Assembly: GCF_006442545.2 (NCBI RefSeq)
Contig: NZ_CP083952.1
Coordinates: forward strand, 496,001 to 560,000
Length of the DNA stretch: 64,000 nucleotides
Direction: 5' to 3'
Source of the DNA: Mesorhizobium sp. B2-1-8
GTDB taxonomy: Bacteria; Pseudomonadota; Alphaproteobacteria; Rhizobiales; Rhizobiaceae
Shown here: one piece after another, positions 290-13,281 of the stretch
Numbering within the stretch: the first letter of the stretch is position 1
Layout: each line of letters opens with the position of its first letter
The notes under the pieces: model-generated
Told to the model about the DNA's origin: nothing
What the model saw: only the letters and a program-made list of their open reading frames with translations
The model's database searches: none
Program-made: the position numbers and the translations under genes

Positions 290-1171
290 ATGCACTTCGG
301 CCCTCACCTCCTCCTCGCCGCCCTCGAAGGCCTCGTCACGTCGGCCGTGCTGGCGCTGACCGCGCTTGGCCTGTCGCTGGTGTTCGGCGTGATGCGAGTC
401 GTCAACGTCGCCCATGGCGAGTTCTTCATGCTGGGCGCCGTGCTTGCCTGGGCGATCACATCGACAGTCGGCGGCCACCCCGCCCTGGGCTTCCTGGCGG
501 CCCTGGTGATCGCGCCGCTGATCGTCGGCGCCATCGCGCTGGTCGCCGAACGGCTGGTGCTGCGCCGGCTCAACTACAATCCGGAAGCCACCATCGTCGC
601 CACCATCGGCATGCTCTACATCATCCAGCAGCTGGCGCTGACTTTCTATGGCCCGGAAGCGCGGCCCGTCGAGCCGCCGTTCAGCTATCGCATCCTTTTG
701 CCGTGGTTCGGCTATTCCGGCTACAAGCTGTCTGTTATCGCCGCCTCCGCTCTCCTGCTGATCGCGACATGGCTGGTGCTGACGCGCACGAAAATTGGTC
801 TCATCATGCGCGCCACGCAGTATGACAGCGAGACGGCGCAAGCCTTCGGCATCCCGGTCGGCCGCGTCTATGGCGGCGTCTTCGCGCTCGGCGCCATGCT
901 GGCGGCGATTGCCGCGGTGCTGATCGTGCCGATCAGCCAGGCGCATTACCTTATGGGGCAGGATCCGCTGCTCTTGTCCTTCATTGTCGTCATCATCGGC
1001 GGCCTCGGATCGCTGCGCGGCACCGTAGTCGCCGCCGTGCTGATCGGCCTGTCCGACGGCATCATCTCGATGTTCTTTTCGCCGACGCTGGCCAAGATCA
1101 TCGCCACGCTCTTGGTCGCCATGGTGCTGGTGTTCCGCCCGCAAGGCCTGTTCGGGACGGCGTCGCGATGA
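290..1171 (+). CDS. livH: Branched-chain amino acid-type ABC transporter permease LivH
   Basis: This 293-residue, strongly hydrophobic protein has the LivH hallmark NVAHGEFFMLGA near residues 39-50 and the GGLGSLRGT loop near residue 240, which contacts the ATPases. It is one of two inner-membrane permeases of a HAAT-family importer. The stop overlaps the start of livM (ATGA), so translation is probably coupled. No Shine-Dalgarno sequence is visible before the ATG, and a repeat element ends about 25 bp upstream, so the start is the weakest part of the call. No periplasmic binding protein is in the window; it may lie to the left. Members of this family carry amino acids, amides, urea or aromatic acids, so the substrate cannot be read from the permease alone. 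Confidence 0.93.
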   Translation: MHFGPHLLLAALEGLVTSAVLALTALGLSLVFGVMRVVNVAHGEFFMLGAVLAWAITSTVGGHPALGFLAALVIAPLIVGAIALVAERLVLRRLNYNPEATIVATIGMLYIIQQLALTFYGPEARPVEPPFSYRILLPWFGYSGYKLSVIAASALLLIATWLVLTRTKIGLIMRATQYDSETAQAFGIPVGRVYGGVFALGAMLAAIAAVLIVPISQAHYLMGQDPLLLSFIVVIIGGLGSLRGTVVAAVLIGLSDGIISMFFSPTLAKIIATLLVAMVLVFRPQGLFGTASR

Positions 1172-2130
1172 GCGAAGCTTCGCCGGCAAAGGCCTATGCA
1201 CTGCATCTCGGCGTCATCGCCCTGCTCTTCGTGCTGAGCTTGCTGCTACCGGACTATTATCACGGTCTGCTCGCCCGCATCATGGTGCTGGCGGTCTTCG
1301 CCATGGGCTACAACATGCTGTTCGGCTATGTCGGCCTGCTCAGCCTCGGCCATGCCATGTTCTTCGGCGCCGGGCTTTATGGCGCCGGGCTCGCCGTCAT
1401 CCAGCTCGGCTGGAGCGTGCCGGCGGCGTTCGCCGCTGGTCTCGGCTGCGGAGTGGTTCTTTCGCTGATCATCGGCCTCCTGGCGCTGCGCACCACGGGT
1501 GTCGCCTTCATGATCGTCACTATGATGTTCGCCCAGGTGTTTTATCTCGCCATCCTCTATTTCGCGGCCTGGACCGGGGGTGATCAGGGCATGGTCGTGC
1601 CGCAGCCGGCACGTGTCCTCACTTTCGGCGCCACATCGCTCGACCTCACCAACCCGACCGTGCGCTACATGACGGCGCTCGGCTTGTTCTCTCTCGTGCT
1701 GCTGATCACGCTCGCCGTCGTCCGTTCCAGACATGGCCGCGTGCTGGTCGCAATCAGGGAGAACGCGGAACGGACGAAGATGCTGGGCTACGACACCTTC
1801 TCCAACAAGCTCGCCGCCGTCGTCGTCTCCGGCGCGATCTGTGCGGCGTCCGGCGCCGCCTACGCGCTGCTGTTCGGCTATGTCGGCTCGAGCTTCGCCT
1901 CGGTGCAGTATTCCATCCTGCCGCTGCTGTGGGTGCTGCTCGGGGGTGCGGCGACAACGCTCGGGCCGCTGATCGGCACGCTGTTCATGTACTATGTCAT
2001 CGACATCACCAGCGGCTACACATCGGCTTATCTGCTGATCGTCGGCATCGCACTGATCCTGCTGGTGCTGTTCTTCCCGAAGGGCATTCTCGGCACCATC
2101 CGCCAGCGCTGGCTCGGGTGGCTGCCATGA
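1168..2130 (+). CDS. livM: Branched-chain amino acid-type ABC transporter permease LivM
   Basis: This 320-residue polytopic membrane protein has the LivM motif GYVGLLSLGHAMFFG around residues 53-67 and the C-terminal RHGRVLVAIRENAERTKMLG loop (about residues 188-207), which is the ATPase contact. It pairs with LivH to form the pore. The ATG overlaps the livH stop, and its own TGA overlaps the livG ATG, so the four liv genes form one transcript. Length and topology are normal for the family. The nearby molybdenum hydroxylase operon suggests the importer may feed a heterocyclic or amino acid substrate to it, but that is inference. Confidence 0.93.
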   Translation: MSEASPAKAYALHLGVIALLFVLSLLLPDYYHGLLARIMVLAVFAMGYNMLFGYVGLLSLGHAMFFGAGLYGAGLAVIQLGWSVPAAFAAGLGCGVVLSLIIGLLALRTTGVAFMIVTMMFAQVFYLAILYFAAWTGGDQGMVVPQPARVLTFGATSLDLTNPTVRYMTALGLFSLVLLITLAVVRSRHGRVLVAIRENAERTKMLGYDTFSNKLAAVVVSGAICAASGAAYALLFGYVGSSFASVQYSILPLLWVLLGGAATTLGPLIGTLFMYYVIDITSGYTSAYLLIVGIALILLVLFFPKGILGTIRQRWLGWLP

Positions 2131-2852
2131 CGCCGCTGCTGACCACCAAGGCCCTGTCGCGCAATTTCGGTGGCCTGCGCGCCGTCGACAACGTCGACTT
2201 CACCTTGATGCCCGGAGAAATCCGCGCCGTCATCGGCCCCAACGGCGCGGGCAAGACCACCTTCGTCAGCCTGGTCAGCGGCCGCATCCGGCCCTCTTCG
2301 GGAGCGATCCTCTTCGACGGCGCCGACATCACCGGCCTGCCGGCCTATGTCAGGGTCCGCCGGGGCATCGCCTACACCTTCCAGATCACCAGCGTCTTCG
2401 CCAACCTCAGCGCCTATGACAATGTCGCGCTGCCGGTGCAGCGCACGCTGAGCGACGGCCGTTCGAAGGGTGCCGTGCGTGCCGGCGTCATGTCGGCGCT
2501 CGAACGCACCGGGCTGGCGGACCGCGCCCATATGCCGGCCGGGCAATTGTCCTACGGCCATCAGCGACTGCTGGAAGTGGCGATGGGCCTGGCGCTGAAG
2601 CCGCGCCTGCTGATCCTCGACGAGCCAACGCAAGGTCTGGCCGACAGCGAGATCGACAATTTTATCGCCCTGGTGCGTGACATCGCAGGAGGTGCCACCG
2701 TGCTCCTGATCGAGCACAACATGCCGGTCGTCATGCAGCTCGCGCACCGCATCACCGTCTTCAACGCCGGCAGGATCCTCGCCGAGGGTGCGCCCGAAGC
2801 CATCCGTGAGAACGCCGCGGTGCAGGAAGCCTATCTGGGGACCGCCCCATGA
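2127..2852 (+). CDS. livG: Branched-chain amino acid-type ABC transporter ATPase LivG
   Basis: This 241-residue cytoplasmic ATPase has its Walker A motif GPNGAGKTT at residues 37-45, the LivG-type signature LSYGHQRLLEVAMGLA, and Walker B LLILDEP followed by the H-loop IEHNM. The start chosen is the ATG at 2127, which overlaps the livM stop; reading further upstream in this frame only shadows livM. The TGA overlaps the livF start. It energises LivHM together with LivF. Confidence 0.94.
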   Translation: MTPLLTTKALSRNFGGLRAVDNVDFTLMPGEIRAVIGPNGAGKTTFVSLVSGRIRPSSGAILFDGADITGLPAYVRVRRGIAYTFQITSVFANLSAYDNVALPVQRTLSDGRSKGAVRAGVMSALERTGLADRAHMPAGQLSYGHQRLLEVAMGLALKPRLLILDEPTQGLADSEIDNFIALVRDIAGGATVLLIEHNMPVVMQLAHRITVFNAGRILAEGAPEAIRENAAVQEAYLGTAP

Positions 2853-3571
2853 CGGAGACGAGCAAGACCGATGCACTGGTGATCTCGGGGCTGGATTGCT
2901 TCCATGGCGAGGTCCAGGTGCTCTACGGACTCGATCTCGTGCTGAACAAGGGCGAGGTGCTGTGCCTGTTCGGCCGCAACGGCGCCGGCAAGACGACGAC
3001 GCTGAAAGCGATCATGGGCCTGGTTCCGGCAAGTGCCGGTTCGATCAGGCTCGCTGGCCGGGAGTTGACCGGCCTGCCGGTGCATGAGGTGCCGAAGGCC
3101 GGCGTCGCCTATGTGCCGCAGGGAAGGCGATTGTTCGCCGAGATGACCGTGGCCGAGAATATCGAGATCGGGCTGATGGCGCGCGGCAAGGACAAGGCGA
3201 CACGCGAGAACGTCCTCGATCTGTTCCCGCTGCTGCGCCAACGGCTGCGGCAGCGCTCGGGCACCTTGTCCGGCGGCGAACAGCAGATGCTGGCGATGGC
3301 GCGTGCGCTCTGCCTGGAGCCGCAGGTGCTTTTGCTCGACGAGCCGACCGAAGGGCTGATGCCGTCGATGATCGCCAAGATCCGCGAGACGGTGTCGAAG
3401 CTGCGCGAGATGGGTGTCTCCACCATACTGGTCGAGCAGCGGGTCGATGCCGTGCTGTCGGTCGCCGATCGTGTCTGCTTCATCGAAAACGGCCGCAACC
3501 GCGAGACGGTCGATGTCGAGGCCCTGCGCGCCGACCCGTCGGCGGTCCGGCGCTATGTCGGCGTCGGTTGA
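2849..3571 (+). CDS. livF: Branched-chain amino acid-type ABC transporter ATPase LivF
   Basis: This 240-residue ABC ATPase has Walker A GRNGAGKTT at residues 42-50, signature LSGGEQQMLAMARAL and Walker B VLLLDEPTEGL. The IVEQRV-type H-loop, in which Gln precedes Arg where His is usual, is common in LivF proteins. It starts inside the livG stop codon (ATGA) and is the last gene of the livHMGF transcript. A palindromic repeat follows the stop at once, and the next gene is convergent. Confidence 0.94.
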   Translation: MTETSKTDALVISGLDCFHGEVQVLYGLDLVLNKGEVLCLFGRNGAGKTTTLKAIMGLVPASAGSIRLAGRELTGLPVHEVPKAGVAYVPQGRRLFAEMTVAENIEIGLMARGKDKATRENVLDLFPLLRQRLRQRSGTLSGGEQQMLAMARALCLEPQVLLLDEPTEGLMPSMIAKIRETVSKLREMGVSTILVEQRVDAVLSVADRVCFIENGRNRETVDVEALRADPSAVRRYVGVG

Positions 3572-3655: not shown

Positions 3656-5101
3656 TTAGCGGAAAAACAGAAAACCCGCGATCAGGAAGGTTGGGATCAG
3701 CACCAGCCCGGACCACAGCATATAGCCGAAGAAGCCCGGCATCTTGACGCCGCGATGTCTGGCAATGGCATAGACCATGAAGTTGGGGGCGTTGCCGACA
3801 TAGGTGTTGGCGCCCATGAACACGGCGCCCGCCGAGATCGCGGCGAGCGTCGAGGCGAACTCCGTCATCAGGTGTTGAGGGTCGCCGCCCGCCAGCTCGA
3901 AAAACACCAGATAGGTCGGCGCATTGTCGAGGAAGGATGACAGCGCCCCGGTCAGCCAGAAATAGGCGAGGTCGTTGGGCGTGCCTTGTGCCGACGTGAC
4001 GAGCGCGACCAGCGGCGCCAGCGCGCCGTCATGGCCGGCTCTCAAAATGGCGACCACCGGAACGATGCAGATGAAGATGCCGGCGAACAATTTGGCCACT
4101 TCCGCGATCGGACCCCAATTGAAACCGTTCGCTTGGCGGTGGCTCTTGTACGAGAGGGGAAGCGATAGCAGGGCCAGCGCGAGAATGACCGCGTCGCGCA
4201 CCAGGTTCTGCAGTTCGAGACCGACGCCGAACACGGAAAAGCTCACGCCCGGCTTCCAGGCCGCCGACAGCAGGATGGCGCCGATCACACCGGCCAGCAG
4301 CGGAAGGTTGGCCAGGCCGCGCAGACGCACTTTCGTATCCGGTGTTGGATCCTTGATCTTCGGCGCGCCGGCCTCGCGCCGGTGCAGGATGAGGTCGATC
4401 GCCAGGAACACCGCCAGCACGACGACGCCGACGAACAGCGTCTCCCGGTAGAGGTTGGTGGTCGTCCAGAAGAAATCGACGCCGCGCAGGAAGCCGACGA
4501 ACAGCGGCGGGTCGCCGAGCGGCGTCAGCGAACCGCCAATGTTGGATACCAGGAAAATGAAGAAGATGACGACATGGCCATTGAAAGGCCTGTTGTCGTT
4601 GGCGCGCAGGATCGGCCGGATCAGGATCATCGAGGCGCCCGTCGTGCCGATCACCGAGGCAAGCAGCGCCCCGACCGCCAGCAGTCCGGCATTGACCAGC
4701 GGTGTGCCGTGGATGTTGCCGGCGAGCAGGATGCCGCCCGAAATCGTGTAGAGGGCAAACAGCAGGACAATGAACGACATGTATTCGGTGAGCAGCGCGT
4801 GCAGCACCGCCTCGGTTGCCGCCGGAGCACCGAAGGCGACCGCGAGCGGCACGATCACCAGCGCCGCCCACAAGGCCGCGATCTTGCCGTAGTGATGTTC
4901 CCAGACATGGTGGAACAGCAGCGGACCGGTCGCGATCGACAGGAGCAGCCCGGCAAAAGGCAGCGCCCACCAGAGCGACATCGTGGCGCCAGGCAGGCCG
5001 TGTTCTTCGGCCGCGAAGGCCGATACCGGAAACAGCATCGCGACGACGATCGCACCGGCCGCTCCGATCGCCATCGGCAAAGATCCCCTTCTGCTCCCCA
5101 T
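3656..5101 (-). CDS. NhaD/CitMHS-type sodium:proton antiporter
   Basis: This 481-residue inner-membrane protein of the ion transporter superfamily has about 12 hydrophobic segments. It carries the motifs SNIGGSLTPLGDPPL and SFLDNAPTYLVFF, typical of NhaD/ArsB-like carriers, in which the paired SN and DN helices bind the ion. The N-terminus looks like a signal segment ending AFAAEE. The ATG at 5101 has no clear ribosome site; an ATG at 5074 follows an AGAAGGGG stretch and may be the true start, giving 472 residues. It starts 7 bp after the pncA stop on the same strand, so the two are probably co-transcribed. Na+/H+ exchange is the family function; a carboxylate substrate cannot be excluded. 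Confidence 0.82.
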   Translation of the reverse strand: MGSRRGSLPMAIGAAGAIVVAMLFPVSAFAAEEHGLPGATMSLWWALPFAGLLLSIATGPLLFHHVWEHHYGKIAALWAALVIVPLAVAFGAPAATEAVLHALLTEYMSFIVLLFALYTISGGILLAGNIHGTPLVNAGLLAVGALLASVIGTTGASMILIRPILRANDNRPFNGHVVIFFIFLVSNIGGSLTPLGDPPLFVGFLRGVDFFWTTTNLYRETLFVGVVVLAVFLAIDLILHRREAGAPKIKDPTPDTKVRLRGLANLPLLAGVIGAILLSAAWKPGVSFSVFGVGLELQNLVRDAVILALALLSLPLSYKSHRQANGFNWGPIAEVAKLFAGIFICIVPVVAILRAGHDGALAPLVALVTSAQGTPNDLAYFWLTGALSSFLDNAPTYLVFFELAGGDPQHLMTEFASTLAAISAGAVFMGANTYVGNAPNFMVYAIARHRGVKMPGFFGYMLWSGLVLIPTFLIAGFLFFR

Positions 5102-5108
5102 GGTGCCG

Positions 5109-5723
5109 TCAGCCCGACGTGTGATCTTCGAGCGTCACGCCGGCATCGCGCATTTTCGCCAGCATTGTCTCGAGCGATCCGTTGAGATCGATGCCACGGC
5201 AGGCATCGAGCCTGACCGTGGTGCTAAAACCCTGTTTGACCGCATCCAGCGCCGAGAAGGCGACACAGAAATCGGTCGCCAGGCCGACCAGGGTCAGCGT
5301 GTCGATACCGCGCTCCCGGAGATAACCGGCGAGCCCGGTCGGCGTCGTGTGATCGTTCTCGAAAAAGGCCGAGTAGCTGTCGATGGCAGGGCGAAATCCC
5401 TTGCGTATGACGAGTTCGGCCTTGGTCCAGGCAAGGCCGGAATGGAAATCCGAGCCAAGACTGCCCTGAATGCAATGGTCCGGCCACAAAGTCTGCGGAC
5501 CATAGGGCATCTCGATCGTCGAAAAAGGCTGCGCGCCGGGATGGCTGGAGGCAAAGCTGGAATGGCCGGCGGGGTGCCAGTCCTGCGTCAGCACGACATG
5601 GTCGGTTCGCCGGATCATGTCATTGACCAGCGGCACGATCTCGTCGCCGCCGGCCACCGCCAGCGCGCCGCCCGGGCAAAAATCGTTTTGCAGGTCGATG
5701 ACAACGAGCGCTTCGTCGGCCAT
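5109..5723 (-). CDS. pncA: Nicotinamidase PncA
   Basis: This 204-residue isochorismatase-fold hydrolase converts nicotinamide to nicotinate and ammonia. The catalytic triad is visible as D10 (VVIDLQNDF), K108 (VIRKGF) and C153 (GLATDFCV), and the metal ligands are D48, H50 and H83 in DWH and PDHC. This is the set expected for true nicotinamidases and not for other isochorismatase relatives. The ATG at 5723 follows a GGAAGGAAA ribosome site. It is divergent from the molybdenum hydroxylase operon, about 330 bp away. The usual role is NAD salvage; here its product would also be the first substrate of a nicotinate-type pathway (inference). Confidence 0.88.
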   Translation of the reverse strand: MADEALVVIDLQNDFCPGGALAVAGGDEIVPLVNDMIRRTDHVVLTQDWHPAGHSSFASSHPGAQPFSTIEMPYGPQTLWPDHCIQGSLGSDFHSGLAWTKAELVIRKGFRPAIDSYSAFFENDHTTPTGLAGYLRERGIDTLTLVGLATDFCVAFSALDAVKQGFSTTVRLDACRGIDLNGSLETMLAKMRDAGVTLEDHTSG

Positions 5724-5901
5724 GGGGTTTCCTTCCTGTCAGGCTAGGGCTCGGGTTCCGAACGAGGGACCGGGCGAAAGAAAAAGCCGCTGGCGCGACC
5801 GGAGGGAGAAACTCGACCAGATGGCGGGCCGCGTCAACCTCCAGCGGCATATCAAATGCGTGGCGATGCCAGCCACACGGGCGCCGCCGCAAACTCTGGC
5901 T

Positions 5902-5929
5902 TTGACAATTTCTGCCGTCTTGATATCAT
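5902..5929 (+). promoter_or_regulatory. Sigma-70-type promoter for the molybdenum hydroxylase operon
   Basis: TTGACA (5902-5907) is separated by 16 bp from TATCAT (5924-5929), close to consensus. It lies about 125 bp before the GTG of the first structural gene, in a stretch noticeably more AT-rich than its surroundings. The rest of 5724-5988 shows no coding potential, though it contains a loose CCGCTGG/CCAGCGG inverted pair near 5789 and 5840. Confidence 0.55.
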
Positions 5930-6006
5930 TTGCATACGAATGAATTTGCCGGATTGAAACCGGCAAGATATCCCCGGGAGCAAGCGCCTTGGGAGGGCCG
6001 ATTTCC

Positions 6007-6060
6007 GGGAAGGCCCATTTTGTTGGGAAGGCCCACCTTATTGGGAAGGAAAGCGTGATC
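6007..6060 (+). repeat. Three tandem 18-bp units at the start of the hydroxylase FAD-subunit gene
   Basis: The units are 6007-6024, 6025-6042 and 6043-6060. All begin GGGAAGG; the first two continue CCCA and the third diverges into AAAGC plus the GTG start at 6055. Each unit carries a Shine-Dalgarno-like purine run. If translation began at the upstream TTG (5989), the units would encode a repeated GKAHFV/GKAHLI/GKESVI hexapeptide. Confidence 0.7.
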
Positions 6061-6909
6061 CGTTACGCGAAACCCACCACGGTCGACGAGGCGCTCGCGC
6101 TGCTTGGCGAGGGCGCCTGGCGTATTCTTGCGGGCGGCACGGATTTCTATCCGGCACAAGGCAGCAAGCCGTTTCGCGACAATGTCCTCGACATCAACGG
6201 CCTGACGGCGCTGCGCGGCATCGCCGAGACCGGCAACCACTGGATCATCGGCGCGCGCACGACATGGACCGATGTCATCCGCCTGCCCCTGCCGCCAGCC
6301 TTTGACGCACTGAAACAGGCGGCGCGCGAGGTCGGTTCGGCGCAGATCCAGAACGTCGCCTCGGTCGCCGGCAATCTGTGCAACGCTTCGCCGGCCGCCG
6401 ACGGCGTGCCGGGGCTGCTCGTGCTCGACGCCGAGGTCGAGCTGCGCTCGGCGGCGGCGACGCGCCATCTGCCCTTGTCCGAGTTCATCCTGGGCAACCG
6501 CCGCACGGCCTTGCAGCCTGGCGAGATGGTGACGGCCATCCGCGTGCCGAAACCCACCGGTACATCGGCCTTCGTCAAGCTCGGCGCCCGGCGTTATCTC
6601 GTCATCTCCATCGCCATGGTGGCGGCGCGTCTGGTTGTCGAGAATGGCATTGTCGCGGATGCGGCCGTCGCCGTCGGCTCCTGTTCCGCCGTTGCCAGGC
6701 GGCTTGCCGGTGTCGAGGCGGCGTTGCGCGGGCTTCCCCTGGACGCCGGGCTTGTTGCCGCGGTCCGGTCGGCGCAGATGGCTGAGCTGTCGCCGATCGC
6801 CGATGTGCGCGGCAGCGCCGAATACAGGCTCGAAGCGGTGCGCGAGATCGTTGCGCGCGCGGTGCTCGAGGCCGCGGGCAATCCGAAAGGCGACAAGGTG
6901 GCCGCATGA
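6055..6909 (+). CDS. Molybdenum hydroxylase (xanthine dehydrogenase family) FAD-binding subunit
   Basis: This 284-residue medium subunit passes electrons from the 2Fe-2S clusters to FAD. The FAD-binding motif ILAGGTDFYP lies near residues 22-31, and ASVAGNLCNASPAADG near residues 101-116 is the second FAD loop of the family. The GTG at 6055 is chosen because it follows GGGAAGGAAAG at good spacing and because homology-like sequence begins there (VIRYAKP). An in-frame TTG at 5989 would add a repetitive peptide. The stop overlaps the next start (ATGA). With the following fused subunit it makes a complete hydroxylase that adds water-derived oxygen to an aromatic N-heterocycle or purine. Adjacent genes favour a nicotinate-like substrate over xanthine, but the sequence does not prove this. 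Confidence 0.88.
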   Translation: MIRYAKPTTVDEALALLGEGAWRILAGGTDFYPAQGSKPFRDNVLDINGLTALRGIAETGNHWIIGARTTWTDVIRLPLPPAFDALKQAAREVGSAQIQNVASVAGNLCNASPAADGVPGLLVLDAEVELRSAAATRHLPLSEFILGNRRTALQPGEMVTAIRVPKPTGTSAFVKLGARRYLVISIAMVAARLVVENGIVADAAVAVGSCSAVARRLAGVEAALRGLPLDAGLVAAVRSAQMAELSPIADVRGSAEYRLEAVREIVARAVLEAAGNPKGDKVAA

Positions 6910-9824
6910 GCATGGATCGCGCCGATATCGCCTTCGCGGTCAATGGCGCCGCCGTCTCGATCAACGTGCCGCCGCTGCGCCGGCTGTCCTCGGTGCTGCG
7001 TGACGAATTGCGGCTGACCGGCACAAAGGTCGGCTGCGACGCCGGCGACTGCGGCGCCTGCACGGTGCTGGTCGACGGCGATCCCGTCTGTGCCTGCCTG
7101 ATGCCGGCGGCCTCAGCCGCCGGCACTGCGGTGACGACGGTCGAGGGCCTCGCCAATAGCCGGCTGTCGGCGTTGCAAGCCTCGTTCCTGGCGCATGGTG
7201 CGGCGCAATGCGGCATCTGCACGCCGGCGCTGCTGGTCGCGGCGACCGCATTGCTGGACACGAAACCCAGGCCGACCGAGACCGAGGTGCAGGATGCGCT
7301 GGGCGGGATCCTCTGCCGCTGCACCGGCTACCGGAAGATCATCGCGGCGGTGATGGAGGCCGGACAATTTGCAATAAAGCCATCGACGGATAGCGCTGCC
7401 CCTCATCCGCCTGCCGGCACCTTCTCCCCGTATAGTGACGGGGAGAAGGGAAGCGCTCCAGCGTTGGCGCCCCCCTCTCCCCGCCCCTTGCGGGGAGAGG
7501 GTAAGGGTGAGGGGCAGCGCCAACTTTATGGACTGGATCGCGATTTCGATCGGAGGATGCCGGCCTCGGGCCATGCCGTTGGGGCTTCGCCGATCAGGCT
7601 CGATGGCGTGCCGAAGGTAACGGGCGATGAAAAATTCGGCGGCGATTCCTTCCCGGCCGATGCGCTTGCCGTGCTGGTGATCCGCTCGCCGCATTATCAT
7701 GCCGGCTTCGCCTTCGGCGACATCGATGGCTGGGCGAGAAACCATCCCGGTATCGCGGGCGTTTTCACGGCCGACGATATCCCGGGGAAAAACTGTTTCG
7801 GCGTGATCGGCCCGTTCGCCGACCAGCCGGCGCTCGCCGAGGGCTTTGTCCGGCTTCGCGGCGAGGCGGTCGCCCTGGTCGCCGGCGAGCGCGAGGCGAT
7901 CCTCGATCTCGATCTGTCGGACTTCCCCATCCGCTGGACCGAGCTGCCGCATGTCCTCCAGACTTACGACGCGCAGTCCGAAGGTGCTGCGCTGATCCAT
8001 GAAAACCGCCCGGCCAATTTGTTGACCAAGGGATTTGTCGAGCGCGGCGATCCCGAGTCGGCGCTGGCCGATGCGGCCGTCACCGCCAGCGGCGCGATCG
8101 ACACCTCCTATGTCGAGCACGCCTATATCGAGCCGGAAGCCGGCTATGCATATCTCGATGGCGACACGCTGGTCGTCGTCGCCTGCACCCAGGCGCCTTA
8201 CATGGACCGTGACGACACGGCGAAAGTGCTCGGCCTCGCCGTCGACAAGGTGCGCATCGTGCCGACCGCGACCGGTGGCGGCTTCGGGTCCAAGCTCGAC
8301 GTTTCCCTGCAGCCTCTCATCGGCCTCGTGGCGCTGAAGACCGGGCGGGCGGCGGCGCTTGCCTACACCCGCAGCGAATCCATGATTTCGACCACCAAGC
8401 GCCATCCGGCCCAGATGAAGGCCACCATCGGCGCCGATGCCGACGGCTACGTCACCGGCATGGTCTTCGAGGGCGATTTCAACACCGGCGCTTATGCCAG
8501 CTGGGGCCCGACGGTCGCCAACCGCGTGCCGGTGCACGCCTCCGGCCCCTATGCGACGCCCAACTATCGTGCAGAGGGCCGCGCCATCCACACCCATGGG
8601 CCGATCGCCGGTGCCTTCCGTGGCTTCGGCGTGCCGCAGGCGACGATCATGCAAGAGACGCTCTATGACGAGCTCGCCGGCAAGCTCGGCATGGATCGGC
8701 TTGAGTTTCGTCTGAAGAACTGCCTTCGGAACGGATCCGAAACGGTTACCGGGCAGCTTCTGGAGTCTGGCGTCGGCATCGCCGAGTGCCTCGAAGCCCT
8801 GCGGCCGCATTGGGTGCGGGCTATGGCCGATGCGGATGGTTTCAACCGTGCCAGTATCGACAGAAAACGCGGCATCGGCGTCGCTTCGTGCTGGTACGGC
8901 TGCGGCAACACATCGCTGCCCAATCCGTCGACCATTAGGGTCGGCATCGCGGCTGACGGCGCGGTCATCCTGCACCAGGGCGCCGTCGATATCGGCCAGG
9001 GGTCCAACACCGTCATCACGCAGATCTGCGCCGACGCTCTCGGCCTGCCGCTGGAAAAATTCCGGCTCAAGAGCGCCGATACGGCGATCAGCCCCGACGC
9101 CGGCAAGACTTCGGCCTCGCGACAGACTTTCGTGACCGGCAAGGCGGCCGAGAGGGCTGGGCGGGCCCTGCGCGAAAAAATCCTGCGCTTTGCCAATGTC
9201 TCGGACAAGGCTTCCCTTCAACTGGATGGCTCGGCGATCGTCATCCGCGAAGGCGAGGCGACGCGCCGTGTCGATCTTGCCTCGCTCGATGCGGATGCCA
9301 ACGGCTTCGTCTTCCGCGCCGAGGAGACTTATGATCCGCCAACGCTGCCGCTCGATGCCAAGGGCCAGGGCAACCCCTATGCGGTCTATGGCTATGGCGC
9401 GCAGATCGCCGAGCTCGAGGTCGATCTCAAGCTCGGCACGGTCAGGCTGATCAGGATCATCGCGGCGCATGACGTCGGCAAGGCGATCAATCCGCTGCTG
9501 GTCGAGGGCCAGATCGAAGGCGGCATCGCGCAAGGCATCGGCATGGCGCTGATGGAAGAATACATCCCCGGCCGCACCGAGAACCTGCACGATTATCTCA
9601 TCCCGACCATTGGCGACGTGCCGCCGATCGAGACCATCCTCATCGAGGTGCCCGATCCGGAGGGACCGTTCGGCGCCAAGGGCCTGGGCGAGCACGTGCT
9701 GATCCCGACGGCGCCGGCGATCCTCAACGCCATCCGCCACGCCACCGGCGTGCTGGTCACCAAGGTGCCGGCAACGCCAAGCCGCATCCTGGCGGCCATC
9801 CGCGAGAAGGAGGCACGTGCATGA
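6906..9824 (+). CDS. Fused 2Fe-2S and molybdopterin-binding subunit of a xanthine-dehydrogenase-family hydroxylase
   Basis: This 972-residue fusion has two parts. Residues 1-155 form the small subunit: a plant-type 2Fe-2S site (C44, C49, C52, C64) and a second site (C102, C105, C137, C139 in QCGIC and CRCTGY). Residues from about 210 form the molybdopterin large subunit, with GGGFGSK and GAFRGFG cofactor loops and the catalytic glutamate in GAKGLGEH (E929). Residues about 163-205 are low-complexity Pro/Gly/Arg sequence encoded by a 128-bp palindromic repeat element, read in frame exactly at the domain boundary. In many relatives these domains are separate genes, so the element may sit at an old gene junction. 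The gene overlaps both neighbours by 4 bp. The substrate is unknown; aldehydes, purines and N-heterocycles are all used in this family. Confidence 0.88.
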   Translation: MSMDRADIAFAVNGAAVSINVPPLRRLSSVLRDELRLTGTKVGCDAGDCGACTVLVDGDPVCACLMPAASAAGTAVTTVEGLANSRLSALQASFLAHGAAQCGICTPALLVAATALLDTKPRPTETEVQDALGGILCRCTGYRKIIAAVMEAGQFAIKPSTDSAAPHPPAGTFSPYSDGEKGSAPALAPPSPRPLRGEGKGEGQRQLYGLDRDFDRRMPASGHAVGASPIRLDGVPKVTGDEKFGGDSFPADALAVLVIRSPHYHAGFAFGDIDGWARNHPGIAGVFTADDIPGKNCFGVIGPFADQPALAEGFVRLRGEAVALVAGEREAILDLDLSDFPIRWTELPHVLQTYDAQSEGAALIHENRPANLLTKGFVERGDPESALADAAVTASGAIDTSYVEHAYIEPEAGYAYLDGDTLVVVACTQAPYMDRDDTAKVLGLAVDKVRIVPTATGGGFGSKLDVSLQPLIGLVALKTGRAAALAYTRSESMISTTKRHPAQMKATIGADADGYVTGMVFEGDFNTGAYASWGPTVANRVPVHASGPYATPNYRAEGRAIHTHGPIAGAFRGFGVPQATIMQETLYDELAGKLGMDRLEFRLKNCLRNGSETVTGQLLESGVGIAECLEALRPHWVRAMADADGFNRASIDRKRGIGVASCWYGCGNTSLPNPSTIRVGIAADGAVILHQGAVDIGQGSNTVITQICADALGLPLEKFRLKSADTAISPDAGKTSASRQTFVTGKAAERAGRALREKILRFANVSDKASLQLDGSAIVIREGEATRRVDLASLDADANGFVFRAEETYDPPTLPLDAKGQGNPYAVYGYGAQIAELEVDLKLGTVRLIRIIAAHDVGKAINPLLVEGQIEGGIAQGIGMALMEEYIPGRTENLHDYLIPTIGDVPPIETILIEVPDPEGPFGAKGLGEHVLIPTAPAILNAIRHATGVLVTKVPATPSRILAAIREKEARA
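7393..7520. repeat. 128-bp palindromic element inside the hydroxylase coding sequence
   Basis: Perfect 13-bp terminal inverted repeats GCGCTGCCCCTCA (7393-7405) and TGAGGGGCAGCGC (7508-7520) enclose two perfect hairpins. These are 7420-7449, with 12-bp arms and an ATAGTG loop, and 7474-7500, with 11-bp arms and a five-base loop. All three reading codons pass without a stop, giving the linker of the fused subunit. The form is that of rhizobial intergenic repeats, here sitting in a gene. Confidence 0.85.
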
Positions 9825-11362
9825 GCGAGCTTGCCGAACGCTTCGAAACCCATGAACCCGGCGAGAAGCTGGTGGCGGAAAAGATCCGCTGCGACGCCTG
9901 TCCCGTCATGTGCTACATCGCAGACGGGCGCACCGGCGCCTGCGACCGCTATGGCAATGTCGCGGGCCGGATCGTGCGCATGGACCCGCTGGCCATCCTC
10001 GACCACGCAGCCGAAACCGGCGCTACCATGGTGCCCTTTGTCGCCGAGGGCGAACAGTGGGACGGCGAACTGGTCAACACTGGCCGCCGTTTCGTCACGG
10101 CGATCGGCGCCGGCACGACCTATCCCGACTACAAGCCGGCGCCCTTCATCGTCAGCCAGGAGGTCGAAGGCGTCGATCTCGTCACCGTGGTGACCGAAGG
10201 CATCTTCTCCTATTGCGGCGTCAAGGTGAAGATCGACACCGACCGTCATATCGGACCCGAAACGGCTGTTGTGCGGGCAGAGGGCGAGGCCGTCGGCCAC
10301 GTCACGACGGGCGAATACGGCTCGCAGATGCTGTCGCTGGGCGGCGTGCATCATCTGACCGGCGGCTCCAAGGCGGAGGGCCGCGCCACTTGCGACGCGC
10401 TGCTCAATTTGTGCAACCGCAAACCTGTGGAACTCAGCATAGACGGCGGCGCCACGGTCATTGTCGAAGCCGGCAAACCGCCAGTCATCGACGGCAAGCA
10501 GGAACACCGCATGCGCGTCGGCTGCGGCTCGGCCACCATCGGCATGTTCGCCACGCAGTGGCGCGGCCTGGTCGACGAGGTCGTGGTGGTCGACGACCAC
10601 ATCACCGGGGTCGTCTCCGAGCATCAAGCCGGCAAGGTGCTGGGCTGGCAGGATACCGGCATCAAGATCATCGGCCGCCGCTCCACACCGGGCCGCTATT
10701 TCAAGGTCTCCGAGCCCGGCCTCGGTTGGGGCGGCACCAGCATTTCCGATCCGCTGTCGATCCTCGGCGAGTGGAATGCCAAGAAGGGCGCGCGGCCGGG
10801 CCTGTCGCTGCTGATGGTTTCGACCACCGGCGAGCAGTTCGCCTATTACGAACTCGATGACGAGCTGAAGCCCGTCGAAAAGCCGTTTCCGGAACGGCTG
10901 CAGAGATCCGTCAACCTGATCGAGGACAATTGCGAGCCGGCTTTGTGCACCGTGCTATTCATCGGCGGCGCCGGCGGGTCGCTGCGTGCCGGCGTCACCG
11001 AAAACCCGGTCAATCTCACCCGTTCGGTGCAGGGCCTGAGAACCTACGTCACCGTGGGTGGCGCGCCGGTCTATGTCTGGCCGGGCGGCGGCATCACGCT
11101 GATGGTCGATGTCAGCAGGGTTCCGGAAGGCGCCTTCGGCTACGTGCCGACGCCGGCGCTGGTGGCGCCGATCGAATTCACCTTGCGCCGCGACGATTAC
11201 ATCAGGCTCGGTGGCTACGAGGCCGAAATTCGCAGCGTTGCGGACATCGTCGCCAAGGGCGGCGAGTATCTCAACCCCCGGCGCGGCACGGGTGCCCCGT
11301 CCAGCAATCCATGGCCGCCGCTGGCGCAGTTGCGCCGCGCGGGCTCCAACGGGGCTGGCTGA
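9821..11362 (+). CDS. 6-hydroxynicotinate reductase-like iron-sulfur protein
   Basis: This 513-residue protein resembles 6-hydroxynicotinate reductase (Hnr), an iron-sulfur flavoprotein known from nicotinate fermentation in Eubacterium barkeri that reduces the 6-hydroxypyridine ring. The call is from memory of the family. Visible support is the N-terminal cysteine set C24, C27, C31 and C41 (CDACPVMC...GACDRYGN), typical of an Fe-S cluster, another Cys in SYCGVKV (C132), and glycine-rich stretches such as IGGAGGSLRAGV. It overlaps the hydroxylase by 4 bp (ATGA) and the next gene by TGATG. After a hydroxylase, a ring reductase is the logical second step. Whether it acts on 6-hydroxynicotinate or another lactam is untested. 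Confidence 0.75.
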   Translation: MSELAERFETHEPGEKLVAEKIRCDACPVMCYIADGRTGACDRYGNVAGRIVRMDPLAILDHAAETGATMVPFVAEGEQWDGELVNTGRRFVTAIGAGTTYPDYKPAPFIVSQEVEGVDLVTVVTEGIFSYCGVKVKIDTDRHIGPETAVVRAEGEAVGHVTTGEYGSQMLSLGGVHHLTGGSKAEGRATCDALLNLCNRKPVELSIDGGATVIVEAGKPPVIDGKQEHRMRVGCGSATIGMFATQWRGLVDEVVVVDDHITGVVSEHQAGKVLGWQDTGIKIIGRRSTPGRYFKVSEPGLGWGGTSISDPLSILGEWNAKKGARPGLSLLMVSTTGEQFAYYELDDELKPVEKPFPERLQRSVNLIEDNCEPALCTVLFIGGAGGSLRAGVTENPVNLTRSVQGLRTYVTVGGAPVYVWPGGGITLMVDVSRVPEGAFGYVPTPALVAPIEFTLRRDDYIRLGGYEAEIRSVADIVAKGGEYLNPRRGTGAPSSNPWPPLAQLRRAGSNGAG

Positions 11363-12246
11363 TGGAAGGCCCGCAAGCGCATTGGCTTCAGGACGGCAAG
11401 CGGCTGCATCTCAACCACGGGCCGATCGACCTGATCGTCGAGGCCTTTGGCGAGGCCGATGAGTGTCGCGCCGCCTACGCCCAGGCCGTCGCGCGCTTCC
11501 AGACGATCCTGATCGAGTTGGTCGAGGAGCTTCCCGAACTGCGCCTTCAGGCATTTTTCCTGGCGCCGCGCGCCTTCGCCGGCCCGACGGCGCGACGCAT
11601 GGAAGCAGCCGTCATGCCGTTGGCGGAATGCTTTATCACGCCGATGGCCGCCGTTGCTGGATCGATAGCCGACGAAATGCTTGCCGCGCTGCTTGCGGGT
11701 CGCAAGCTCGATCGCGCCTATGTCAACAATGGCGGCGACAGTGCCCTCCACATCGGCGCGGGCCGATCCATGGGATTGGCGGTCGCCGGCACCGGCAACG
11801 GCATGGCCGACCGGATCACGATCCGCGCCGAGGATGGCGTGCGTGGCGTCGCAACCAGCGGCTGGCGTGGCCGCTCTTTCTCGCTTGGCATTGCCGATGC
11901 CGTCACCGTGCTCGCGCGGACCGGCGCCGAGGCCGATGCGGCGGCGACGCTCATCGCCAACGCGGTGGACCTGCCCGGCAATCCCGCCATCAGGCGCATT
12001 CCCGCACGCGACCTGTCGCCCGACAGCGATCTAGGCGCGCGGCTGGTGACACAAGGCGTCGGCACGCTTGTAGCTGATGAGGTGGCGCGGGCGCTGGACA
12101 ATGGCCTTGCCGTCGCCGAAGATTTTCGCCGGCGCGGCCTGGTTGCCGCATCGGCGCTGTTTCTTGGCGGGGAGGCCCGCGTCAGTGGCTCCGTTGCACT
12201 CGGCGCGCCCAACAAGCATGAACCGGAGGAAGTTGCCCATGCCTGA
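11362..12246 (+). CDS. UPF0280 family (ApbE-like) protein
   Basis: This 294-residue protein of the UPF0280 family is a distant relative of the flavin transferase ApbE. Recognisable features are NNGGDSALHIG (about residues 118-128), GLAVAGTGNGMADR and GVATSGWRGRSFSLGIADAVTVLA, which match the ApbE-type core containing a GVATSG strand and an AD metal-site pair. The start is the ATG at 11362, fused to the reductase stop as TGATG, so synthesis is coupled. No biochemical role is established for UPF0280. Given that ApbE attaches flavin covalently and that its upstream partner is a flavoprotein-type reductase, a maturation role is possible, but the usual ApbE acceptor motif (SGAT-like with a preceding Asp) was not found in the reductase. 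Confidence 0.8.
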   Translation: MEGPQAHWLQDGKRLHLNHGPIDLIVEAFGEADECRAAYAQAVARFQTILIELVEELPELRLQAFFLAPRAFAGPTARRMEAAVMPLAECFITPMAAVAGSIADEMLAALLAGRKLDRAYVNNGGDSALHIGAGRSMGLAVAGTGNGMADRITIRAEDGVRGVATSGWRGRSFSLGIADAVTVLARTGAEADAAATLIANAVDLPGNPAIRRIPARDLSPDSDLGARLVTQGVGTLVADEVARALDNGLAVAEDFRRRGLVAASALFLGGEARVSGSVALGAPNKHEPEEVAHA

Positions 12247-12823
12247 GTTTCCGATCCGCAAGATCGCGGTGCTGAGCGAAGAGATCTTTCACGAAGGCGG
12301 GCCTGTCGCCGCGGTGCCGCGCCGGCGTGCTGCCGCCATGGCCGTGGTCAGGAACCCGTTCGCCGGACGCTATGTCGAGGATCTGCAGAGCGCCATGGAC
12401 GATCTGAAGCCGCTCGGCCTGCTGCTCGCCGACCGGCTGATCGCCGCACTCGGCGGCGACGTGAAACAGATCGACGGCTACGGCAAGGGCGCCATCGTCG
12501 GCACCGCGGGCGAACTGGAGCACGGCGCGCTCTGGCATGTGCCGGGCGGCTACGCGATGCGGGAGCGGCTCGGCAATGCCAAGGCGATCGTGCCCTCGGC
12601 CAAGAAGGTCGGCGCCTTCGGCTCGAAGCTCGACGTGCCGCTCGGCCATATCAACGCCGCCTATGTGCGCAGCCATTTCGACGCCATGGAAGTCGGCGTC
12701 AGCGACGGCCCGCGTTCCGACGAGATCCTGTTCTGCCTGGCCATGACCTGCGGCCCGCGCATCCATAATCGCATGGGTGGCCTCGCGGCGGACGAGATAA
12801 AAGCCTGGGACGGGTTGCGGTGA
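12239..12823 (+). CDS. 'Amino acid synthesis' (DUF1185/AA_synth) family protein
   Basis: This 194-residue soluble protein matches the AA_synth family (formerly DUF1185): an N-terminal IRKIAVLSEE strand, YGKGAIVGTAGELEHGALWHVPGG in the centre (about residues 80-103), and the C-terminal ALTCG-type segment LAMTCGPRIHNRMGG. The family name is historical and no reaction is proven. The ATG at 12239 follows GGAGGAAG and overlaps the upstream gene by 8 bp; the TGA overlaps the GTG of the MarR gene. Its position after a ring hydroxylase and a ring reductase makes ring opening or lactam hydrolysis an attractive idea, since no other hydrolase is in the operon. Confidence 0.78.
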   Translation: MPEFPIRKIAVLSEEIFHEGGPVAAVPRRRAAAMAVVRNPFAGRYVEDLQSAMDDLKPLGLLLADRLIAALGGDVKQIDGYGKGAIVGTAGELEHGALWHVPGGYAMRERLGNAKAIVPSAKKVGAFGSKLDVPLGHINAAYVRSHFDAMEVGVSDGPRSDEILFCLAMTCGPRIHNRMGGLAADEIKAWDGLR

Positions 12824-13281
12824 GCGGCGAGGACAATCTGCTCAAGCTCGTCGAGGTCGAAGACGCCGACGATCACGATTACCTGCTGCAGGAACAGGTC
12901 GGCTTCATCCTGCGCAAGGCGCACCAGCGCCACGTCTCGATCTTCGCCGCCCGTATCGCCGACCTGACGCCGCCGCAATTCGCAGCACTGGCCAAGCTGC
13001 ATGATGTCGGCGAGACTTCGCAGAACCAACTGGGCACGCTGATCGCCATGGACGCCGCAACGGTAAAGGGCGTCATCGACCGGCTGAAGGCGCGCGGCCT
13101 GGTCGAGCTTTCCAGGCATGAGGTCGACAAAAGGCGGCTGCTGGTCAACCTGACGGCCGAGGGCCGCGAAGCGATCGAGCGCCTGATCCCGCTTGCAAGG
13201 GAGATCACGCAGGAAACGCTGGCGCCGCTCACGGCCAAGGAGGCCGCCACTTTCATGAAGCTGCTGGCCAAGCTGGCATAG
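12820..13281 (+). CDS. MarR family transcriptional regulator
   Basis: This 153-residue winged-helix repressor begins at GTG 12820, inside the stop of the previous gene (GTGA). The helix-turn-helix is about residues 53-76 (SQNQLGTLIAMDAATVKGVIDRL), followed by the wing HEVDKRRLLVNLT and a C-terminal dimerisation helix. MarR proteins often sense aromatic ligands, which suits a local regulator of the hydroxylase operon in which it is the last gene. No clear palindrome was identified at the operon promoter, so the target is inferred from position only. Confidence 0.88.
   Translation: MSGEDNLLKLVEVEDADDHDYLLQEQVGFILRKAHQRHVSIFAARIADLTPPQFAALAKLHDVGETSQNQLGTLIAMDAATVKGVIDRLKARGLVELSRHEVDKRRLLVNLTAEGREAIERLIPLAREITQETLAPLTAKEAATFMKLLAKLA

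Follow-up and report, generated by a model that had tools for sequence, protein, structure and literature searches.

Which enzyme opens the ring when a gene cluster for the reductive degradation of nicotinate comes without an enamidase? The question is raised by a stretch of 64,000 nucleotides of Mesorhizobium sp. B2-1-8, here called the window (positions 496001-560000 of contig C1; the genome comprises 6.87 Mb on two contigs). Its central element is an operon of six genes, head to tail between 6055 and 13281, for the FAD subunit of a molybdenum hydroxylase, a fused [2Fe-2S]/Mo subunit, a 6-hydroxynicotinate-reductase-like protein (Hnr), a UPF0280 protein, a DUF1185 protein and a MarR regulator.

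From gene content, synteny, co-occurrence, operator-like sites and fold, all established here, we consider it probable that this is a catabolic operon for nicotinamide and nicotinate, controlled by a BpsR-like MarR, with HyuAB as ring opener and UPF0280 maturing Hnr; every catalytic step and the regulation are predictions from these data. PncA, by its known family function, would convert nicotinamide to nicotinate. The hydroxylase would then yield 6-hydroxynicotinate, which Hnr, to judge from its homologues and with electrons delivered via an Fpr-type ferredoxin-NADP reductase, would reduce to 1,4,5,6-tetrahydro-6-oxonicotinate, a six-membered lactam. The ATP-dependent lactamase HyuAB, not an enamidase, would open the lactam to 2-(aminomethylene)glutarate, which is expected to hydrolyse to ammonia and 2-formylglutarate, the same product as with enamidase. 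The MarR protein would repress the operon at a palindrome before it until a pathway intermediate releases it. UPF0280 would be an ApbE-fold protein dedicated to the maturation of Hnr, most likely by flavin attachment, and DUF1185 an auxiliary protein that might assist the aldehyde step. What we infer is a reductive pathway of the nicotinate type that uses a different ring opener and whose genes are in part scattered over the genome.

The operon and its probable ring opener

All six genes are on the forward strand. They encode the FAD subunit (6055-6909, GTG start; PF00941, PF03450), the fused [2Fe-2S]/Mo subunit of 972 residues (6906-9824; PF00111, PF01799, PF02738, PF20256), Hnr (9821-11362; recognized by homologues and conserved cysteines), the UPF0280 protein of COG2122 (11362-12246; NF003322, 387 bits, cut-off 290), the DUF1185/PF06684 protein (12215 or 12236 to 12823; PF06684, 236 bits, gathering score 27; PDB 3byq and 2qtp) and the MarR regulator (12820-13281). 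A first-pass annotation of the window had described five genes overlapping by 4-8 bp in one operon. The operon stands; its genes number six, and the consecutive overlaps are 4, 4, 1, 11 or 32, and 4 bp. The same annotation correctly named the UPF0280, DUF1185 and MarR genes, here supported by family scores over cut-off or by matches to PDB entries, and a complete hydroxylase, all of whose FAD, [2Fe-2S] and Mo domains are matched by Pfam. An open reading frame at 11463-12077 in the mechanical list lies in a different frame from the UPF0280 gene and matches no family.

No Pfam or NCBIfam family exceeds its cut-off over Hnr. Many homologues, however, bear the source name 6-hydroxynicotinate reductase, as the first-pass annotation had supposed, and the protein shares 94% identity with proteins labelled Mesorhizobium; its likeness to the Eubacterium barkeri enzyme itself is taken from these source names and from PMC3511419. 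Cysteines 24, 27, 31, 41, 132, 235 and 371 are retained in at least 97% of aligned rows. A molybdenum hydroxylase and an Hnr homologue stand within one operon, as expected of a reductive (Hnr-type) nicotinate pathway. Hnr was found in 60 of 61 genomes of the genus, our own counted. Conservation of gene order, suggested earlier as a check, was examined: FAD-Mo-Hnr-UPF0280-DUF1185-MarR, with pncA and a CitMHS-type transporter gene on the other side, recurs in eight of the nine genus loci that were fetched; the other, L119, is a contig of 5 kb carrying FAD-Mo-Hnr alone.

A reductive nicotinate pathway has reportedly been described in E. barkeri (Alhapel 2006). The pathway idea is not new and the system not undescribed, as had been claimed, because a related Hnr cluster is in print for Azorhizobium, Bradyrhizobium, Rhodopseudomonas and strain SG-6C (PMC3511419). 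The Mesorhizobium operon has in common with it the hydroxylase, Hnr, an ABC importer and two conserved unknowns, and also, here as a prediction, the reduction of 6-hydroxynicotinate to tetrahydro-6-oxonicotinate. UPF0280 and DUF1185 are probably the two unknowns, since both come after Hnr in named Bradyrhizobium loci containing Hnr.

One difference lies in ring opening. Enamidase was recognised in two relatives because it resembles PDB 2vun; in our genome it was not found, the best match being 36% over 79 residues. Instead, HyuA of the Hnr-linked type is encoded at C1:744665-746746, about 234 kb from the operon, together with HyuB and ferredoxin-NADP reductase (fpr). From the lack of later enzymes the first-pass annotation had suggested a short variant of the pathway; the lack of enamidase is borne out, the shortness is not, in view of the distant HyuAB behind a matching operator. 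This HyuA is 66% identical to a HyuA encoded beside Hnr elsewhere, whereas the five other matches in the genome reach at most 37%, and it falls among the 21 rows of an Hnr-linked clade (FastTree SH-like support 100). The separation is probably a rearrangement, because in one genome of the genus (L122) the end of HyuB and MarR are 7 bp apart, and one open reading frame of about 340-370 residues lies between MarR and HyuB in another (L123) and in a member of the family (L223).

HyuA and HyuB show the hydantoinase A/B domains (PF01968, PF05378, PF02538) with an Asp-His-Asp-His metal site: D45, H109, D112 and H134 of HyuB (reading-frame numbering) align with the metal ligands D41, H99, D102 and H124 of CapB. 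This two-subunit architecture and metal tetrad are shared with caprolactamase CapAB and other ATP-dependent lactamases (PMC8453981). Caprolactamase also provides the best models (NF050156 and NF050157; 503 and 318 bits), yet the equivalog cut-off of 1000 is not reached; HyuAB differs in forming its own Hnr-tied clade and in its predicted substrate, a six-membered enamide lactam. In the literature searched, which leaves out most subscription journals so that prior print is possible, the matches listed held no link between a hydantoinase or lactamase and nicotinate degradation.

The two openers behave almost as alternatives. A survey of 57 genomes included 56 with Hnr, and the one without it (G202) has neither opener. 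Among the 56, HyuA (at least 55% identity) occurs in 32 and enamidase (at least 61%) in 24; 31 have HyuA alone, 23 enamidase alone, one both (G221) and one, in 690 contigs, neither (G213). In a class sample of 190 genomes (thresholds of at least 55% for HyuA and 65% for enamidase), all 28 Hnr-positive genomes have an opener (19 HyuA, 9 enamidase, none both at these thresholds), as against 3 of the 162 Hnr-negative ones.

Both openers also appear to share regulation with the operon. Direct reading gives a sigma-70-like promoter on the forward strand at 5902-5929 (TTGACA at 5902-5907, TATCAT at 5924-5929, 16-bp spacing), presumably active and lying in a block conserved among aligned relatives. 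The operator-like palindrome TCATTTGCATACGAATGA (5926-5943, forward strand) overlaps its -10 box and is found before the operon in relatives too; with up to 3 mismatches allowed, the window contains just this copy, against 0.16 expected. Eight FAD/Hnr promoter sites were combined into a matrix, which in 130 loci, those supplying the matrix excluded, returned 131 sites versus 7 in first-order shuffles. Predicted sites lie upstream of FAD in 22 of 35 loci, Hnr in 25 of 109, HyuA in 6 of 16, Fpr in 28 of 60 and enamidase in 29 of 99, versus 1/99 for UPF0280, 1/96 for DUF1185, 3/39 for MoL, 0/12 for HyuB and 0/9 for LivFG as controls. Within the window and 16 fetched loci of its own genome, only two sites score above 14: window 5926 and L114:10827, in the hyuA-fpr gap. 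We infer that these sites mark one regulon of operon, openers and fpr. Two unrelated hydrolases behind the same operator are the best evidence that both do the same job.

Several observations weigh against this. No site was found upstream of most Hnr and enamidase genes, and MoL, a gene within the operon, has sites in a few loci. Three of the six HyuA sites come from our own genome and two members of the genus (L114, L122, L123), and L122 and L123 share the site sequence of the window. Related loci are not independent, at least two genomes entered the set in duplicate (L161/L220, L180/L210), and fpr often lies across a single divergent gap from enamidase or hyuA. Above threshold, the Hnr-negative genomes G114 (61%) and G127 (65%, partial) have HyuA and G082 (74%) enamidase; four more have HyuA at 50-53% (G095, G011, G120, G182), which makes the HyuA threshold thin. 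The HyuA type is therefore not confined to Hnr genomes, and HyuAB could act on another lactam. Besides G221 with its two openers, G104 has HyuA and a 41% relative of enamidase.

UPF0280 as a probable partner of Hnr

UPF0280 adjoins Hnr and accompanies it in 28 of 28 class-sample genomes. It has the ApbE fold over 204-216 residues, most of its chain, and conserves the motifs ATSG and ADAxAT, which may correspond to Ser241 and Asp285 of Vibrio cholerae ApbE. In fold and motifs it resembles the ApbE flavin transferases (PMC12052999), but it differs from them in three respects that count against flavin transfer. The ApbE profile PF02424 scores 10.5 bits (cut-off 25.6, E 0.42); visual inspection of the loop, which is shorter, shows no counterpart of the catalytic His257, so that this segment is apparently missing; and the canonical flavinylation motif D-x-x-[ST]-G-A-[ST] occurs in none of 42 Hnr sequences. 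A relaxed pattern, chosen afterwards, is conserved in Hnr: in D119-x-x-T122-x-V-T/S, D119, T122 and V124 are invariant and T125 is present in at least 90%.

We advance only tentatively, as a conjecture that may well fail, that UPF0280 is a divergent ApbE-fold branch that would attach flavin covalently to Hnr, D119-x-x-T-x-V-T125 being a possible site, and that Hnr-type pyridine degradation recurrently replaces an amidohydrolase, enamidase, with an ATP-dependent lactamase behind one conserved operator. It is also conceivable, if somewhat doubtful, that UPF0280 serves Hnr through iron-sulfur or persulfide chemistry rather than flavin transfer. Homocysteine synthesis in Desulfovibrio requires COG2122 together with DUF39 and NIL/ferredoxin proteins, and the same source points out that the part of COG2122 homologous to ApbE seems to stop short of the region that binds flavin, and refers to a proposal of persulfide chemistry (PMC5764234). 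The lack of the canonical motif in Hnr points in the same direction, whereas the ApbE fold, which covers most of the chain, and the two retained motifs argue for flavin transfer. So does the Hnr of E. barkeri, which reportedly carries a covalent flavin (Alhapel 2006).

The substrate, DUF1185 and the hydroxylase

Clues to the substrate come from the regulator and from neighbouring genes. The best PDB match of the MarR protein is 2nnn, followed by the BpsR entries 6pcp and 6pco. BpsR of Bordetella is a MarR protein that senses 6-hydroxynicotinate via Tyr15, His23, Arg26 and His32 (PMC6837509). The MarR of the window shares the fold and three of the four contacts (Y, F, R, H versus Y, H, R, H) but has Phe for His23 and sits in a reductive, Hnr-type operon. 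Y-F-R-H is found in 46 of 64 Hnr-linked MarR proteins, with both opener types, and all four BpsR residues in 5. The nicotinamidase gene pncA (5109-5723, reverse strand; NF008623, 219 bits, cut-off 174) lies beside the operon, and pncB, for nicotinate phosphoribosyltransferase, lies upstream. Near Hnr, pncB (72-73%) is also found in L207-L209 and pncA (53-57%) in L137, L148, L152, L221 and L222. A Neorhizobium plasmid cluster is annotated nicA, nicB, hnr and hyuAB in its own record, and our comparison adds UPF0280 and DUF1185 there. Neighbours such as pncA, pncB and nicAB across several lineages point to nicotinate. Hydroxylation followed by reductive dearomatisation, the nicotinate logic proposed at first sight, agrees with the hydroxylase, Hnr and a relative of a 6-hydroxynicotinate sensor.

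Three points speak against nicotinate. Phe in place of His23 may mean a differing ligand; 11 of the 64 MarR proteins lack the last (second) His too; and neither pncA nor pncB lies near Hnr in any of 33 class and plasmid loci, so the linkage could be chance neighbourhood. The same enzymes might act on another pyridine (for example N-methylated or substituted nicotinate, or picolinate) and then, with HyuAB, form a general route for lactam-forming heterocycles, which we consider unlikely. The departure of the MarR pocket at one residue in four would suit this, as would the varying first enzymes of Hnr clusters: a Mo/FAD hydroxylase as in Mesorhizobium, a NicAB-annotated enzyme, or an added Rieske oxygenase (L069, L070). 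The Bradyrhizobium-like L207 has a 1184-residue Mo protein of the size of, and presumably akin to, NicB. The linkage of pncA and pncB in several lineages argues against it, as does the annotation of nicAB next to Hnr and HyuAB in Neorhizobium. The same holds for the single clade of Hnr-linked Mo subunits (39 rows, support 98/96), in which enamidase-type and HyuAB-type clusters are intermixed. One of its members, L136, has enamidase but no Hnr within its stretch. The tree included six of the eight paralogues from our genome: five cluster separately, and the other, L001, attaches outside the clade on a very long branch.

Genes for Rieske-type ring-hydroxylating oxygenases lie within some Hnr clusters (L069, L070, L202 and others). 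This suggests other pyridine substrates, for example marine algal metabolites, the substrate being a guess.

DUF1185 is common but not obligatory: it is absent from 11 of 33 class and plasmid stretches, three of which end there with the contig (L041, L045, L064). TgnF, a DUF1185 relative, is said to stimulate a semialdehyde-oxidising enzyme (PMC7913881), and by analogy we would guess at a role in the formylglutarate step. That DUF1185 itself opens the ring in a short pathway, with HyuAB an unrelated lactamase, is very improbable. DUF1185 and UPF0280 are indeed the only operon proteins of unassigned function, and no enamidase was found in the genome; but DUF1185 is absent from eight class-sample Hnr stretches that do not end there (L038, L044, L046, L051, L052, L054, L056, L058) and accompanies enamidase in other clusters, and HyuAB stands beside Hnr in relatives and has the operator in common with it. 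Of 58 loci fetched for enamidase that contain Hnr, 56 have a second DUF1185 paralogue close to enamidase; in the other groups, 4 of 21 HyuA loci have one close to HyuA (3/15, 0/2, 1/4). In our genome the second DUF1185 gene precedes, on the same strand, genes for a fused flavin reductase/hydrolase and for a luciferase-like monooxygenase (L077:5575-8982).

A role of the hydroxylase as purine or aldehyde oxidoreductase, with an incidental link to Hnr, is hardly credible: its best NCBIfam scores do go to aldehyde oxidoreductase (564 bits) and selenium-dependent xanthine dehydrogenase (554), but both are far under the cut-offs of 1100 and 830, no xanthine-dehydrogenase equivalog model passes, and the Hnr-linked enzymes form their own clade in a conserved operon rather than a place among purine dehydrogenases, the outcome that the first-pass annotation had named as fatal to its proposal.

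The linker between the [2Fe-2S] and Mo parts is enlarged by an in-frame insert of about 40-45 codons of palindromic, repeat-like DNA within about 7368-7559. It is absent from eight of nine aligned members of genus and family, and the ninth (L116) is in the wrong frame at that place; a 39-bp stretch like it (92%) occurs elsewhere in our genome (L001).

Surrounding genes and meaning

Divergent to the operon lie pncA and the gene of the CitMHS-type transporter (3656-5101, reverse strand; PF16980, 629 bits), which keeps its place beside pncA in all but one of the nine genus loci fetched. Further out, the LivHMGF importer genes (290-1171, 1168-2130, 2127-2852 and 2849-3571, spanning 290-3571 on the forward strand) match PF02653 twice and PF00005 twice; nicotinamidase and importer had rightly been noted as neighbours. 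Upstream, directly past the window edge and near the Liv genes, come a solute-binding protein, a hypothetical protein and pncB (L076). Liv genes adjoin the operon in five of nine genus loci, and none are in the fetched stretches of L117, L120 and L121. In Hnr clusters of this type, a conserved hypothetical protein without Pfam match adjoins the Liv binding protein (L076:15926-17521, L065:11915-13288).

If the reading given here is right, a degradation route for vitamin B3 would be complete on paper in nearly every Mesorhizobium genome sampled, and two unrelated ring-opening hydrolases would serve in it almost as alternatives. UPF0280, a widespread protein of unassigned function, would be tied to a ring reductase, with Hnr as its obligate partner and a testable activity. 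Should the flavin-transfer proposal hold, the same maturase chemistry would account for the need of COG2122 in DUF39-dependent homocysteine synthesis.

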